Assembly (NCBI GenBank): GCA_903822335.1
Contig: CAIJOT010000242.1
Coordinates: forward strand, 1-36,495
Direction of reading: 5' to 3'
Length of the DNA stretch: 36,495 bases
DNA from: an uncultured delta proteobacterium
GTDB taxonomy: Bacteria; Desulfobacterota; Syntrophorhabdia; Syntrophorhabdales; Syntrophorhabdaceae
Shown here in pieces: positions 8,053 through 34,147 of the stretch. Made by a program: the position numbers and the translations under genes. The first letter of the stretch is position 1. Each line of letters begins with the position of its first letter. The notes beneath the pieces were generated by a model. It was not told where the DNA came from. It searched no databases and saw only the letters and a program-made list of their open reading frames with translations.

Positions 8053-8394
8053 ATGGAATGTATGGTTGGTATGGATAAAGAAATAGAAATTACAAAAACA
8101 ATTATAAACGAAGTACTGAAAAACTCAGGAATTGCTTTGGTTGACACGATATTATTCGGAAGCAGGGTAAAGGGTAGCCATAAAAAGGATAGCGATTGGG
8201 ATTTCTTAATAGTTGTCAATGAAGAGTTAAGTTTTAACGACAAATGGGCCTTAATTCTTAAAATAAAGAGGAGACTGGCAAAACTAAGGATTCCGAATGA
8301 CATTATCATCAAATCTAAGAAACAGTTAGAATCTCAAATGGCTGATGTCGGACGTATTGCCTATTATGCTTTCAAAGAAGGCATACAAGTGTGA
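8053..8394 (+). CDS. MNT-domain nucleotidyltransferase (MntA-like antitoxin); start may be the internal MDKEIEI
   Basis: LFGSRVKGSHKKDSDWDFLIV = GSRxxG...DSDxD minimal nucleotidyltransferase motif; 4-nt overlap with the HEPN gene. Confidence 0.88.
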   Translation: MECMVGMDKEIEITKTIINEVLKNSGIALVDTILFGSRVKGSHKKDSDWDFLIVVNEELSFNDKWALILKIKRRLAKLRIPNDIIIKSKKQLESQMADVGRIAYYAFKEGIQV

Positions 8395-8810
8395 ATAAAA
8401 GTACAGTAAAAAACTGGATTCTGAAAGCCGAAAATGACCTCAAGACCGGCAAAGATGAACTGGCTACAGGGAATCCGGCAACCGACACTGTATGTTTTCA
8501 TATGCAGCAGTGTGCAGAAAAATGCCTGAAAGCCTTCCTTGTATTTCATAACCTGGAAATAAGAAAAACACACGATATAGCTGAATTGATTGAACTATGC
8601 ACACAGGTAGATCCCGAATTTGAATATTTGCTTGACCTGAAAGTTGATGAATTGACAAAATATGCTATTGAAATAAGATATCCCGATGATTTCTATTTTC
8701 CATCGATTGATGAGTCAAGGCATGCAGTTGAGCTTGCCCAACAGGTGAAAGATTTTGTATTGAAAAAGCTTCAAATAAATGGCGGGGAAGAAATTAGTCC
8801 GGAGTTGTGA
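8391..8810 (+). CDS. HEPN domain protein, partner of the MNT protein (putative toxin)
   Basis: WILKAENDLKTGKDEL...VCFHMQQCAEKCLKAFLVFHNLEIRKTHDIAELIELC, typical HEPN (PF05168-like); GTG start overlapping the MNT stop. Confidence 0.86.
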   Translation: MNKSTVKNWILKAENDLKTGKDELATGNPATDTVCFHMQQCAEKCLKAFLVFHNLEIRKTHDIAELIELCTQVDPEFEYLLDLKVDELTKYAIEIRYPDDFYFPSIDESRHAVELAQQVKDFVLKKLQINGGEEISPEL

Positions 8811-9061: not shown

Positions 9062-9063
9062 AT

Positions 9064-9206
9064 GAACTACCCCGCAGCAGAGCTGTGAGGTATCTGGAAT
9101 ACAGTAGTCAGAAGTCAGAATTTTCTTGAAGATATTTTAATCCCCCTTCTGGATTCTGAATTCTGGATTCTTACCCCGAAGCAGAGCTTCGAGGAATTCT
9201 TTTGAT
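9064..9206. mobile_element. 143-bp insertion splitting direct-repeat copy 2; candidate MITE-like element with apparent GAT target duplication
   Basis: Ends carry near-identical palindromic modules TACCCCGCAGCAGAGCTGTGAGGTATCT / TACCCCGAAGCAGAGCTTCGAGGAATTCT; flanked by GAT (9061-9063) and GAT (9204-9206); uninterrupted sequence inferred from copy 1. Confidence 0.5.
9102..9171. repeat. Heptamer-period degenerate repeat tract
   Basis: CAGTAGT CAGAAGT CAGAATT TTCTTGA AGATATT TTAATCC CCCTTCT GGATTCT GAATTCT GGATTCT in one 7-nt register. Confidence 0.75.
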
Positions 9207-9597
9207 TAAAAGCAGATCAGGTTCTTCTGGAAACCCTGTGGGTCTCAGTTCCTTCCTGCAATGGAGTTTCTGCCAAGGTTGTCGAATGGGCAACATTTCA
9301 ACCGGCAATCGATAACCAGCGTGAATGTTTCAGCTTGAAATTGAACCGCAATTTCAAAACGGGAGATAAATGCAAACATGATAAGAATACGTGATTCTTC
9401 TCGCCGAGGTTGCTACTTTCTTCTTTATGGCCTCTATCGTTCCTGTAAATAATAAACTTTAAGGTTATGTAGTGCGCATCACAACATTACGATTTAAGAT
9501 TATGTTGTTCGCTACAATTTGTAATGACATCTCGTATCTAATGGCTATCATACGGTTTTATCCTCATAAGTTTGTTATTATAAGAACGTCATTGTCC

Positions 9598-15118: not shown

Positions 15119-15220
15119 GCAGTGAATGGTGATGAAGGCAGTGAATGGTGAATAGTGAATAGTAAAAAAGATGGTGAATGGCGAACAGTGAATAGGTTTT
15201 TAACTAACTACTATTCACTG
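15119..15220. repeat. Heptamer-period repeat tract (ATGGTGA/ATAGTGA words) ending in a perfect 10-bp inverted repeat
   Basis: GCAGTGA ATGGTGA | GCAGTGA ATGGTGA ATAGTGA ATAGTAA | ATGGTGA ATGGCGA ACAGTGA; CAGTGAATAG (15186-15195) / CTATTCACTG (15211-15220). Confidence 0.85.
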
Positions 15221-18000: not shown

Positions 18001-18077
18001 TTTCCGAAATCGGCAATCCGAAATCCGAAATCAACAATCCGAAATGAAGGCAGTGAATAGTGAATGGTTAATGATAT
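18001..18077. repeat. Heptamer-period degenerate repeat tract
   Basis: TTTCCGA AATCGGC AATCCGA AATCCGA AATCAAC AATCCGA AATGAAG GCAGTGA ATAGTGA ATGGTTA ATGATAT, 11 units in one register. Confidence 0.88.
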
Positions 18078-28006: not shown

Positions 28007-28076
28007 TAAGGCACAAGGTGCAAGGAATCAGGCTCAAGGTACAAACCTTTGTCCTTTATCCTTTGTCCTTTAACCT
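28007..28076. repeat. Heptamer-period repeat tract between prs and rplY
   Basis: TAAGGCA CAAGGTG CAAGGAA TCAGGCT CAAGGTA CAAACCT TTGTCCT TTATCCT TTGTCCT TTAACCT, ten contiguous units. Confidence 0.9.
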
Positions 28077-29405: not shown

Positions 29406-30359
29406 CTATATACTGTGTGCTATAAAAATACTTCCCATATCACTTACCATACTGGATGCTTTTCTTGCCGCCCTTTCACTCTCAAAAATACCGAATACTG
29501 AGGAACCGCTGCCACTCATTAATACACCGATAGAACCTGTTCTTCTTAATCTATCTTTTATAGTATCAATTTTTGGACATAGTAAAATACCGATCTTCTC
29601 AAGGTCATTTTCCAAAATGCCTGCAATATCTCTTGTGGTTTTAAATTTTCCCCTCAATTTAATATCATTTTCGCCTTTTGTCAATACGATTTTTAGGCCT
29701 TTGTACACTTCTCTGGTCTGTAAAATCACGTCTGGATATACAATCAGATACCACAGAGCAGGCAACTCAACAGGTAAAATTCTTTCCCCGATTCCCTTCA
29801 TGATACACGACTTCCCATATAAGAATAAAGGAACATCCGCACCTATCTCACTGCCTAATGCCATAAGTTCTCCGTCTCCAATAGATAACCCCCATATCTC
29901 CTTCATCCCTTTTAAAACAGTCGCTGCATTGCTGCTTGGTCCTCCAAGCCCACTACCAACGGGTATGTTTTTCTCAACATATACCCTCACCCCTGAATCT
30001 ACCTTATATGTTTCCTTCAAAAGCATAACTGCCTTGTATATTGTATTCCTCTCCCCATCCGGTAAAATGCCCTTATCATCTTTAACAATCACCTTTCCAT
30101 CCCTTTGCTCCTCTATGTGTATCACATCGTAGAGGGATATAATGTCCACAATGCTGATGATGTTGTGGTATCCATCAACTCTTTTTGAAAGAACTTTTAA
30201 AAAAAGATTTACCTTTGCAGGCGACAGGAGGATATGTTCAAAACCGTGTTGAGTTGCGAGTCGTGAGTTTGCTGAAATGCTGACTTCTGTCTTCTGTCTT
30301 CTCATTGTTAACTCATCAAGATGCCCGATGTACTGTGTTTTATCGAACCCCTTCCACAT
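29406..30359 (-). CDS. ispE: 4-diphosphocytidyl-2-C-methyl-D-erythritol kinase, with unusual N-terminal extension
   Basis: LLSPAKVNLFLKVLSKRVDGYHNI, NIPVGSGLGGPSSNAATVLKG, GVLMSGSGSSVFGIF. Confidence 0.93.
   Translation of the reverse strand: MWKGFDKTQYIGHLDELTMRRQKTEVSISANSRLATQHGFEHILLSPAKVNLFLKVLSKRVDGYHNIISIVDIISLYDVIHIEEQRDGKVIVKDDKGILPDGERNTIYKAVMLLKETYKVDSGVRVYVEKNIPVGSGLGGPSSNAATVLKGMKEIWGLSIGDGELMALGSEIGADVPLFLYGKSCIMKGIGERILPVELPALWYLIVYPDVILQTREVYKGLKIVLTKGENDIKLRGKFKTTRDIAGILENDLEKIGILLCPKIDTIKDRLRRTGSIGVLMSGSGSSVFGIFESERAARKASSMVSDMGSIFIAHSI
30246..30301. repeat. Heptamer-period repeat tract within ispE 5' coding region
   Basis: GTGTTGA GTTGCGA GTCGTGA GTTTGCT GAAATGC TGACTTC TGTCTTC TGTCTTC (plus strand), contiguous register. 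Confidence 0.78.
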
Positions 30360-31821
30360 AAAAATTATCTATACTTAACTCGGGATTGGCAATGATATTT
30401 ATCTTTGTTTGATAAGTATTCTCAATGTACTCTATTGAACTCTTTTCCTCTTCATAAAGAAGGCCCGCAACCTCTGGCGCAAGGAAGACATTGATCTTTT
30501 TCCCCTCATCTTTTTTACAAAAACTCCTCAGTTCTCGTAATACTTCGTAGCACACAGTGTATTTTGACTTTATATATCCAGAACCATCACAACTGGGACA
30601 TACTTCTGTAAGTAAACTCACTATATTATGCCTTGTTCTCTTCCTTGTTATCTGAACAAGACCAATCTCACTGATAGGATAGGCAAATGTCTTTATCCTG
30701 TCTTTCTTTAAAATATCGACAAGAGCCTGAAAGACCATATCTCTTGATTCCTTTCTTTCCATATCGATAAAGTCTACAATGATAATGCCGCCAATATTCC
30801 GCAATCTTACCTGATATGCAATCTCTTTCACAGCCTCAAGATTCGTTCGGAGGATGGTATCCTCGAGTTCTTTTTTACCAAGATACCTCCCTGTGTTCAC
30901 ATCAATGACGGTAAGAGCCTCAGTATAATCCAGCACTATATATCCTCCGGATTTTAACCAGATCTTTTTTTGCGAAAGTTTTGCAATTTCAATTTCAATT
31001 CCATATACCTCAAATACAGGATCCTTCTCATCGAAATAACTTACCTCGCATCCTTCCTCGGGAAGATAGTCCTTTAAAAAACCCTCTATTTTCTCAAAGA
31101 CAAAGGTGTCATCAACAATTATTTTTTTCAAATTATGTGAGTGAAGGTCCCTTATAACCCTGAATATGATACCAAGGTCCTGATGTAGTATAGAAGGTGC
31201 CCTGACATTTTTTGCCTTATCCAGGATACTATCCCATATTCTTTTTAAAAAAATCAGATCGCCTGCTAATTCATCTTGCGTCTTGCCCTCGGATGCGGTT
31301 CTTCCAATAAGGCCAAATCCTTTTGGACATACCTCTTTAAGCACTGCTGCAAGCCTCTTTCTTTCTTCTTCCTGCTCTATTCTACGTGAGACACCGATGT
31401 GTTCTGTACCGGGCATGAGCACAAGGAGCCTTCCAGGCAAAGTTATCTTCGATGTCACCCTTGTGCCTTTTTGACCAATGGGTTCCCTTGAAACCTGAAC
31501 AATCAATTCCTGCCCATCTTCCAGCACACCTTCAATGCGTTCATTCACCACTACAGGGAACTCCAGATTTTCAAACTCCTCGTACATCATATTATCCAAA
31601 AGAATATCCCCAACATAAAGAAAGGCAGATTTTTCAAGACCTATATCAATAAAAGCTGCGTCCATTCCTGGAACAATTCTTGCGACCTTACCTTTATAGA
31701 TATTACCCACCATACTCTTGTCGTTTTTCTTCTCTATGAAAAACTCCACCAGGACGCCGTTCTCTAAAAACGCTATTCTTGTCTCGCTGAACGTAACATT
31801 AATAATTAGCTCTGATGCCAT
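30340..31821 (-). CDS. rng: Ribonuclease E/G family protein
   Basis: NIYKGKVARIVPGMDAAFIDIGLEKSAFLYVGDI, VIDVNTGRYLGKK, GGIIIVDFIDMERKESRD, CPSCDGSG. Confidence 0.94.
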   Translation of the reverse strand: MASELIINVTFSETRIAFLENGVLVEFFIEKKNDKSMVGNIYKGKVARIVPGMDAAFIDIGLEKSAFLYVGDILLDNMMYEEFENLEFPVVVNERIEGVLEDGQELIVQVSREPIGQKGTRVTSKITLPGRLLVLMPGTEHIGVSRRIEQEEERKRLAAVLKEVCPKGFGLIGRTASEGKTQDELAGDLIFLKRIWDSILDKAKNVRAPSILHQDLGIIFRVIRDLHSHNLKKIIVDDTFVFEKIEGFLKDYLPEEGCEVSYFDEKDPVFEVYGIEIEIAKLSQKKIWLKSGGYIVLDYTEALTVIDVNTGRYLGKKELEDTILRTNLEAVKEIAYQVRLRNIGGIIIVDFIDMERKESRDMVFQALVDILKKDRIKTFAYPISEIGLVQITRKRTRHNIVSLLTEVCPSCDGSGYIKSKYTVCYEVLRELRSFCKKDEGKKINVFLAPEVAGLLYEEEKSSIEYIENTYQTKINIIANPELSIDNFYVEGVR

Positions 31822-34147
31822 ATATCCTTCTCTCCTCTGTTTTTATAATTCTTTTAAATAGGTCCTTTGACCACAAATCTTTAATGCCCTTGCCTTTCCA
31901 TACATACATGAACTGTTTACCGTTATTCTCCCATCTCAACCCCTCCATATGTACATCCCGGTCTGCTACCAGTATATATAAATATTCTTTTACCATTTCT
32001 TTGAGATTTCCTTCAATAAACTCAAAAATCTTTATACCCTTTGGTAAAATCCTGTTGATTTTCTGTAATGTTTTACCATTTATAGTAACATCATCATCTA
32101 CCTCTATTTCGATCAACTCACAGGTGCTCTCTATCCCAACAGGTAATGCGTCAGATAATGAAATCTTTGGAAGGGGATGGTATTTTCCGTGCATTCTTAT
32201 CGAAATACCAGAAGACCTGAGTGCCCTCAGTATTATATTCATCGTATCAATGTGACCGATATAACGGGCATTACCATATTTGCCATACCGGAAAGTGTAT
32301 TTTGCGGTTCGGGGTTCGGGGTTCGGGGTTCGGGGTTTTCCAAAACGTCCTTCGTCTCCCCTCTCTTCTCTCCCGTTTTTCTCTTCACTGCTTACTTCAT
32401 ACTCCTTACTCCATTCTAACTTCTGACTTCTGACTTCTGACTTCAATTGATTTTCATCACATCCCATCCCGCATGCCGCACAATTAGAATAACAATCTGC
32501 TGTTTGTATGCCATGTTCTGCCTTTACGAGTTCTTCCTTGAGAAATGTCGTATCTATACCAGTGTCTATAAAATCCCATGGAAATGCTTCTTCAGGGCTT
32601 CTTTCTTTTAAATAATCCTGCCTATCCATTCCATTTTTATTAAACCATTCATCGTATAGCTCTGGCTTGAAAAATTCCCTCCAGGCCTCAAGCTTTACAC
32701 CCCTTTGAACAAGATATTCAAATAAGGGCGCAAGTTTTTGATCACCCCTTGACACAATCCCCTCTATCATGCTTACCTTTACATCCCTGTATTTCAACCT
32801 CACACCTTTTACCTTTAGCGCTCTCTTAACCATGGATAGCTTCTCTTCGAGGGTATCCTGGCTATCCATTGGCAACCACTGAAAAGGCGTGTGTGGTTTT
32901 GGTACAAAAGGGGATACAGAAAGGTTAATCTCCATGCCCCCTTTTACCAAAGGGAAAACAACCTCTCGAATGCTCCAGATATCCTCTTCTTTCTCCCACG
33001 GAAAACCAACCATAAAATAGAGCTTCAGCCTTCTCCAACCATACTTCTTAAGGGCTGACAGTTGCTTCAGCAGTATTTCAATATCAATATTTTTATTAAG
33101 TCTACACCTTATTTCCGGAGACGCGGATTCAAGAGCAAAGGTAAAACCCGTTCTTGCAACTTCACCTATGGTGCGTATTTCTTTTTCCTGTATGCTACCA
33201 ATCTTTAAGGAAGGCAGGGAAACAGATACACCTTTATGATGGCTTTTAATATAAGAAATAACCTGAAAAAGGGCACTGTAATCACCAGAACTCAAGGAAA
33301 GCAAGGAAACACCTTCATAGCCTGTCCCCTTAATTGCCTCGTCAATAATCTCTTTTACCCTTTCATAAGACCTTTCTCTATAGGGCCTGTATCCGAATCC
33401 TGCAAGGCAGAACCTGCAACCATTCCCGCAACCCCTCGAAATTTCAATATTCAGCCTGTTGTGAATACTCCCGACAACAGGTATGGGAGGCTTCACAGGG
33501 TGATATGAGGAATCAAGGTCTGTAATGTATCTCCTTTTTACATAATCTTTTTTGAATAATGGTGAATACACACCATCCAGCCCTGTAAGTTCCTTTATGG
33601 TATCTCCCCTGTCAGCACCTTTTAATCTTTTCAGGATATTCAATATCTCGATGAGTATATCCTCAGCCTCTCCCACAACAATAAGGTCAAAGAACTTTTC
33701 AAAGGGTCTGGGATTGAGCATTGAAGGCCCGCCACCCACGATTATTGGGCCAACATCTCTCTCTTCGGCCTTAGTAGGGATATTGCTCAATTCAAGCATA
33801 TTTAATATATTTGTTACATTCAATTCATAGGAAAGGGAAAAACCCACTATATCCATGGTATTCAGCGGTGTTTTGGACTCAAGGGTGAAGAGACGGACAT
33901 GCTCCTTTCTCATGTATATTTCCATATCATGCCCAGGGGCAAAACATCTCTCACACCATATACCTTCTATACTGTTTGCAAGCTCATAGAGGAGAAAATA
34001 ACCAAAGTAAGACATGCCCACTTCATAAAGATCCGGGTAACACAGGGCAAACCTTACCATCACGTCTTTCGGGTCTTTAATAATCGCATTCGGCTCTATA
34101 CCTGAATATCTTGCAGGCTTCATGATGTGGTTAGGTATATTCAACAT
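31799..34147 (-). CDS. TIGR03960-type radical SAM protein fused to a DUF2344 domain
   Basis: NIEISRGCGNGCRFCLAG (CxxxCxxC-type cluster motif), B12-binding-like N-terminus, C-terminal FRYGKYGNARYIGHIDTMNIILRALRSSGI (DUF2344). Confidence 0.9.
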   Translation of the reverse strand: MLNIPNHIMKPARYSGIEPNAIIKDPKDVMVRFALCYPDLYEVGMSYFGYFLLYELANSIEGIWCERCFAPGHDMEIYMRKEHVRLFTLESKTPLNTMDIVGFSLSYELNVTNILNMLELSNIPTKAEERDVGPIIVGGGPSMLNPRPFEKFFDLIVVGEAEDILIEILNILKRLKGADRGDTIKELTGLDGVYSPLFKKDYVKRRYITDLDSSYHPVKPPIPVVGSIHNRLNIEISRGCGNGCRFCLAGFGYRPYRERSYERVKEIIDEAIKGTGYEGVSLLSLSSGDYSALFQVISYIKSHHKGVSVSLPSLKIGSIQEKEIRTIGEVARTGFTFALESASPEIRCRLNKNIDIEILLKQLSALKKYGWRRLKLYFMVGFPWEKEEDIWSIREVVFPLVKGGMEINLSVSPFVPKPHTPFQWLPMDSQDTLEEKLSMVKRALKVKGVRLKYRDVKVSMIEGIVSRGDQKLAPLFEYLVQRGVKLEAWREFFKPELYDEWFNKNGMDRQDYLKERSPEEAFPWDFIDTGIDTTFLKEELVKAEHGIQTADCYSNCAACGMGCDENQLKSEVRSQKLEWSKEYEVSSEEKNGREERGDEGRFGKPRTPNPEPRTAKYTFRYGKYGNARYIGHIDTMNIILRALRSSGISIRMHGKYHPLPKISLSDALPVGIESTCELIEIEVDDDVTINGKTLQKINRILPKGIKIFEFIEGNLKEMVKEYLYILVADRDVHMEGLRWENNGKQFMYVWKGKGIKDLWSKDLFKRIIKTEERRIYGIRANY
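32306..32449. repeat. Heptamer-period repeat tract coding for the interdomain linker of the radical SAM/DUF2344 protein
   Basis: GGTTCGG x4 (32306-32333); then TCGTCTC CCCTCTC TTCTCTC CCGTTTT TCTCTTC ACTGCTT ACTTCAT ACTCCTT ACTCCAT TCTAACT TCTGACT TCTGACT TCTGACT in one register from 32352. Confidence 0.9.

Follow-up and report, generated by a model that had tools for sequence, protein, structure and literature searches.

The window analysed here, a stretch of 36,495 nucleotides, is contig C242 of a Syntrophorhabdaceae MAG (2.88 Mb in 342 contigs). On its minus strand, positions 31799-34147 hold an ORF of 782 amino acids in which a B12-binding/radical SAM protein is fused to DUF2344 (TIGR03960 plus TIGR03936/PF10105). 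In an NCBIfam profile search, both models scored above their curated cut-offs within this single ORF (TIGR03960, 548.8 bits against 462.3; TIGR03936, 86.4 bits against 71.9), with the best stretch of TIGR03960 at residues 201-562 and that of TIGR03936/PF10105 at residues 616-722. The names of both models denote functionally undefined families, and the enzymatic role of the protein is putative. The fusion was found in all 60 genomes searched. Its radical SAM part ends in a cysteine motif, C552-x3-C556-x2-C559-G-x2-C563 (32459-32494, minus strand), in which C552, C556, C559, G560 and C563 were invariant columns among 26 orthologues. The linker lies between this motif, which adjoins it upstream, and the first DUF2344 strand.

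In the window, this linker is made of a heptamer tract (32306-32449, minus strand), through which the ORF runs uninterrupted. These nucleotides encode residues 567-614, with the peptide QLKSEVRSQKLEWSKEYEVSSEEKNGREERGDEGRFGKPRTPNPEPRT, confirming the earlier note, which had described the tract as an in-frame linker between the two domains and had given the same peptide. Tandem Repeats Finder identified two clean arrays. The first, GAACCCC (32306-32337, minus strand; GGTTCGG on the plus strand), consists of 4.6 perfect units (100%) and encodes PRTPNPEPRT, while the second, GAAGTCA (32414-32444, minus strand; TTCTGAC on the plus strand), has 4.4 units (95%) and encodes KSEVRSQK. Between them, a degenerate 7-periodic stretch (32341-32413, minus strand) showed self-identities of 0.56 at lag 7 and 0.53 at lag 14, against 0.19 and 0.25 at lags 6 and 8. 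It includes ACTCCTT/ACTCCAT units, located by the same program at 32387-32414 and of AAGGAGT type on the coding strand. When the genome was searched for (TTCGGGG)x3 with at most one mismatch, no copy other than the 32306-32337 array appeared, and three exact GAAGTCA units were present at the 32414-32444 linker array only. The GAACCCC array gives the template strand four runs of GGGG and with them a G4 motif, but such motifs occurred in just 5 of 39 linkers, on either strand, and a G-quadruplex function was discarded.

Over the whole tract (32306-32449), self-identity was 0.64 at lag 7, 0.57 at lag 14 and 0.46 at lag 21, with 0.26-0.29 at the adjacent lags, 6 and 8. Not one shuffle out of 20,000 attained the lag-7 value. 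Coding DNA of the same genome had a mean lag-7 identity of 0.25 (SD 0.04) and, with the tract left out, none of its 26,395 coding windows reached 0.6. The arrays found by Tandem Repeats Finder and this excess over the coding background establish the heptamer tract, already reported in the earlier note, as real, and its 7-periodicity is seated in the DNA, at lag 7, and not in the protein. AlphaFold2 (26 orthologues) modelled both domains and gave residues 565-611 a pLDDT below 50, which predicts that the interdomain linker is disordered.

The linker was then compared across 39 genomes. Thirty-eight linkers were gap-free, the window's included, and the remaining one (L093, from G023) contains a run of N. 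Heptamer-built linkers, with differing words, were present in 16 of the 39 (L093 being counted among them after its N were removed), and the other 23 were not built of heptamers. Lag-7 identity fell into the same two classes, with 0.40-0.60 in 15 gap-free linkers, joined by L093, and 0.16-0.36 in 23; the periodicity of L010 was weak. Words found in other linkers comprised ATACGAT, CGAACGC, GAGAGCG, CCCATTG, CTCAACA, AAATCAC and more. Heptamer linkers measured 35-69 residues and non-heptamer linkers mostly 30-41, with L017 at 53. Since linkers of the latter kind occur in many relatives, the linker is older than the repeats. These results bore out the prediction that orthologues would carry no linker repeats or linkers of other length or word, and the same conserved linker sequence was not seen in other lineages among the 39 orthologues. 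Every one of the 38 gap-free linkers, including the 15 built of heptamers, had a length divisible by three and kept both domains in one frame. An apparent frame break in G023 was rejected as uninterpretable because L093 holds the N run, and a selenoprotein idea was dropped when the TGA flagged in many orthologues proved to be the ordinary terminal stop.

When the heptamer label was placed on a tree built from the domains only, five changes were needed, at least three of them forced by well-supported branches, indicating that heptamer linkers were gained or lost several times. Omega ranged from 0.08 to 0.14 in the radical SAM domain and from 0.11 to 0.29 in DUF2344, values which place both domains under purifying selection. 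In the linker it ranged from 0.24 to 1.5, an estimate made on 33-58 codons with few sites and uncertain alignments; the linker is close to neutral while its two neighbours are constrained. Non-heptamer linkers gave 0.5-0.74, so low constraint predates the repeats. The claim that repeat DNA had been inserted into the gene and tolerated at a domain boundary therefore has to be split: tolerance agrees with a near-neutral linker, but the linker itself is ancestral and the repeats expand or overwrite it.

Differences between sister species pointed to the size of the steps involved. Two sister pairs showed linker differences of 14, 14 and 21 nt, all whole numbers of 7-nt units. L007 (G016) and L031 (G007) have equal linker length and near-identical DNA, with compensating changes of -14 and +14 nt. 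Of the 39 nt enclosed by these changes, 34 are identical, but the two species translate the segment in different frames (IHNSQALILPKTE versus SQFASLNPAEGG), and DUF2344 stays in frame in both despite the 14-nt changes. Residue order in the linker is thus not conserved, and compensating 14-nt changes are able to scramble it. L015 (G033) and L020 (G027) are exactly 21 nt apart, the longer one having a new word, GCATCRA. In other pairs, such as L007 and L016, length differences were not multiples of 7, indicating that other indels act too.

Heptamer tracts were not restricted to this gene. A 480-kb sample of this genome contained 24 tracts at period 7 and 0-5 at each other period from 5 to 11, and a 180-kb sample of G017 contained 39 versus 0-3. 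Counted on contig samples, tract density reached 50 per Mb in this genome, 217 in G017, 81 in G008 and 75 in G014, whereas none appeared in the 80 kb sampled from each of G024 and G038, two genomes whose linkers lack heptamers too. G003 and G015 were intermediate, G015 having tracts but a plain linker. Period 7 is thus the sole clearly enriched short period in several Syntrophorhabdaceae genomes. Tracts were depleted in ORFs, with 26 of 86 lying inside them against ~89% coding DNA, and several of these 26 sat at ORF starts that were possibly mis-called. The remaining in-ORF tracts fell in conserved genes identified by Pfam, encoding RecG, a hybrid histidine kinase, TonB (two genomes), UDP-GlcNAc 2-epimerase, a CapD-like protein (two genomes) and a family 2 glycosyltransferase.

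Two of these proteins repeated the pattern of the linker. The RecG loop from motif II (DEQHRFG) to motif III (TATPIPRTL) has 13 residues in most relatives, and in G000, G005, G016 and G003 it is heptamer-built and 38-57 residues long, with words that are partly related, yet different. Structure prediction gave the G000 insert (residues 426-467) as disordered. In RecG of G007, the wedge-helicase hinge carries a second heptamer insert, which is 72 residues long where relatives have 13-19. In the CapD-like enzyme, a loop has 9 residues in g5 genomes and 23-57 in a further eleven, many of which are rich in heptamers there; the inserts L192, L193 and L195 are long and without clear 7-periodicity. 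In L184 (G007, contig C173), recG is interrupted by a deletion and a frameshift at the end of the motif II-III heptamer array, reflecting either a pseudogene or an assembly error.

Arrays were also seen outside conserved genes. Intergenic ones in the window comprised AGTGAAT (15139-15169), TCCGAAA (18003-18045) and CCTTTGT (28044-28076), and a TTCTGTC array (30275-30303) lay inside the called 5' end of an ispE-like ORF (29406-30359), whose true start is probably downstream of the array. G017 holds intergenic composite tracts (L074, L076 and L121-L124) made of the successive words GCTCATG, AGGCGTA and CTTTCAC, some of the words in inverted order, so that hairpins could form.

Taken together, we consider it very probable that these are heptanucleotide SSR arrays residing in flexible loops, where they undergo slippage and word turnover and are filtered for frame and stop codons. 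Replication slippage in steps of 7 nt, combined with point mutation, would make arrays grow, shrink and turn over their words, as the unit-sized differences between sister species suggest. As 7 and 3 have no common factor, each frame of a strand yields one and the same set of seven residues from a heptamer array; if the array contains no stops, it can be read through whatever the frame, and its total length alone matters. The encoded peptides would usually be hydrophilic and disordered in every frame, so that selection would eliminate only those changes that cause downstream frame loss, introduce stops or disturb folded parts, and arrays would persist at loops. The linker would still function as a spacer in which the order of residues is mostly irrelevant, and the same process would also be at work in RecG and the CapD-like enzyme. 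A further-reaching version, which we hold only tentatively and regard as doubtful, is that Syntrophorhabdaceae possess an active, 7-nt-specific repeat generator that rewrites loops and linkers of conserved proteins, the RecG helicase core included, and is driven by a property of polymerase or repair instead of ordinary neutral slippage. If true, this 7-nt-specific process would be a lineage-wide engine of protein-loop diversification.

Alternative explanations were weighed against the slippage of heptamer arrays. Gene switching by heptanucleotide arrays is known, as in neuO of E. coli K1, and the loss or gain of a single unit in this linker would shift the frame and turn DUF2344 off. A phase-variation switch of this kind nevertheless seems unlikely, since every gap-free heptamer linker is in frame (as judged from one consensus per species), DUF2344 is under purifying selection, other host genes such as recG have housekeeping rather than surface functions, and the clean arrays reach just ~4-5 units.

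Insertion of a mobile element, by which a transposed repeat resembling a Rickettsia palindromic element landed in frame, could draw on the presence of a dispersed element in the same genome. A copy of this ~150-bp palindromic (MITE/REP-like) element, which contains GTAGTCAGAAGTCAGAA and has the hairpin ends CCCCGCAGCAGAGCTGCGAGG and CCCCGAAGCAGAGCTTCGAGG, lies at 9062-9210 (plus strand); it had 30 matches in the genome, 17 of which cover the query completely or for the most part, with identities of 85-100%. The word GAAGTCA is common to this element and the linker, and the genome encodes five Y1-type transposases (Y1_Tnp). The earlier claim that the words of the tract recur intergenically at 9.1 kb thus holds for this shared word, but the site belongs to a separate element that is unrelated to the linker phenomenon. 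The recurrence of GAAGTCA in the genome might suggest a shared word dictionary and hence spreading, but most copies belong to this dispersed element and provide no evidence that heptamers spread, and the idea was rejected. Moreover, no second GAACCCC array exists in the genome, and GAAGTCA forms three exact units in the linker only, so the same element at several loci, as expected of RPE/MITE-type insertions, was not observed for the clean linker arrays at three units. No flanks common to the linker and the dispersed copies were seen, and the same site in relatives holds different words. We accordingly judge an insertion improbable. In the genomes of the phylum, (GAAGTCA)x3 was present in 17 of 297, with a reversed control in ~5. 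Elsewhere in the window, at 8053-8810, adjacent genes for a nucleotidyltransferase (PF18765) and a HEPN protein (PF05168) likely form an MNT-HEPN toxin-antitoxin pair.

A selected protein linker, in which a charged peptide with a 7-residue repeat would carry the function and dictate the pattern in the DNA, agrees with the presence of the linker in all orthologues, its mostly hydrophilic composition and the fact that it never frameshifts DUF2344. We regard it as very unlikely: a protein heptad predicts a DNA period of 21 nt, yet identity was higher at lag 7 than at lag 21, words and peptides vary between genera, the same DNA is read in different frames in sister species and omega exceeds that of both flanking domains. 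Finally, an assembly artefact of metagenome binning is extremely improbable, for although the genomes are largely MAGs and repeats are prone to misassembly (as in the N gap of L093 and the broken recG of G007), heptamer linkers occur in 16 genomes, with named records from different projects, no gap-free case breaks the frame, and independent genes are affected at the same loops.

Within genes, the expectation for tandem repeats is a unit length divisible by three. The heptamer arrays described here depart from it: their 7-nt unit is found repeatedly in conserved genes, at the same loops and with different words across genera, the frame being preserved through total length. These loops constitute a natural experiment in which disordered segments of bacterial proteins arise from non-coding-type DNA, with empty sites available for comparison. 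They also call for caution with MAG proteins, as peptides such as RTPNAEHR, KFKIQNSK and AEGSKQKAEG represent DNA repeats and not conserved domains.

Heptanucleotide repeats are already known. In most bacterial genomes, no other long simple repeats are reported to be as common as heptanucleotide arrays, and slippage over a 7-nt polymerase footprint is proposed for them (PMC4679880, PMC4692102, citing Mrazek 2007). Examples are the words GGGNATC (Xanthomonas), GGGGA(C/T)T (Nostoc) and TAACTGA (Beggiatoaceae) (PMC4679880, PMC4692102). The arrays reported here resemble these SSRs in their tandem 7-nt units at many loci per genome and in length and sequence that vary among close relatives. Exact units occurred above chance without enrichment of other periods, and lengths differed by whole units in two sister pairs, in addition to the other differences seen in further pairs. 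The published SSRs are mainly intergenic with one or few words, whereas here many words per genome occur, in frame in conserved genes and at recurrent sites. No account of heptamer arrays that recur at fixed loops in conserved genes was found in a literature that mostly excluded subscription journals, so that this absence is weak evidence.

Among individual systems, Geobacter metallireducens has heptanucleotide elements of four and five units, among them GGGACCG with 49 copies inside genes as well as between them, and class 3 sites with the consensus MTYCTGA (PMC2700814). As in our case, its arrays lie both in and between genes, and MTYCTGA fits the window word CTTCTGA, but each of its classes has one word and is read as regulatory sites (PMC2700814), while here the words at the same site differ between genomes. 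Rickettsia palindromic elements, conserved sequences of ~150 bp at many loci (Ogata 2000, described in PMC10969869), are similar in placing repeat DNA in frame within conserved protein genes, where it is tolerated at fold-compatible sites (PMC10969869), and differ in that the linker tract has no element copies elsewhere. Similarly, the amino-acid tandem repeats of Borgs are fast-evolving DNA repeats that create disordered protein regions; the unit lengths of Borg ORF repeats are all divisible by three (PMC9879509), in contrast to the 7-nt unit described here, for which the frame is preserved via total length.
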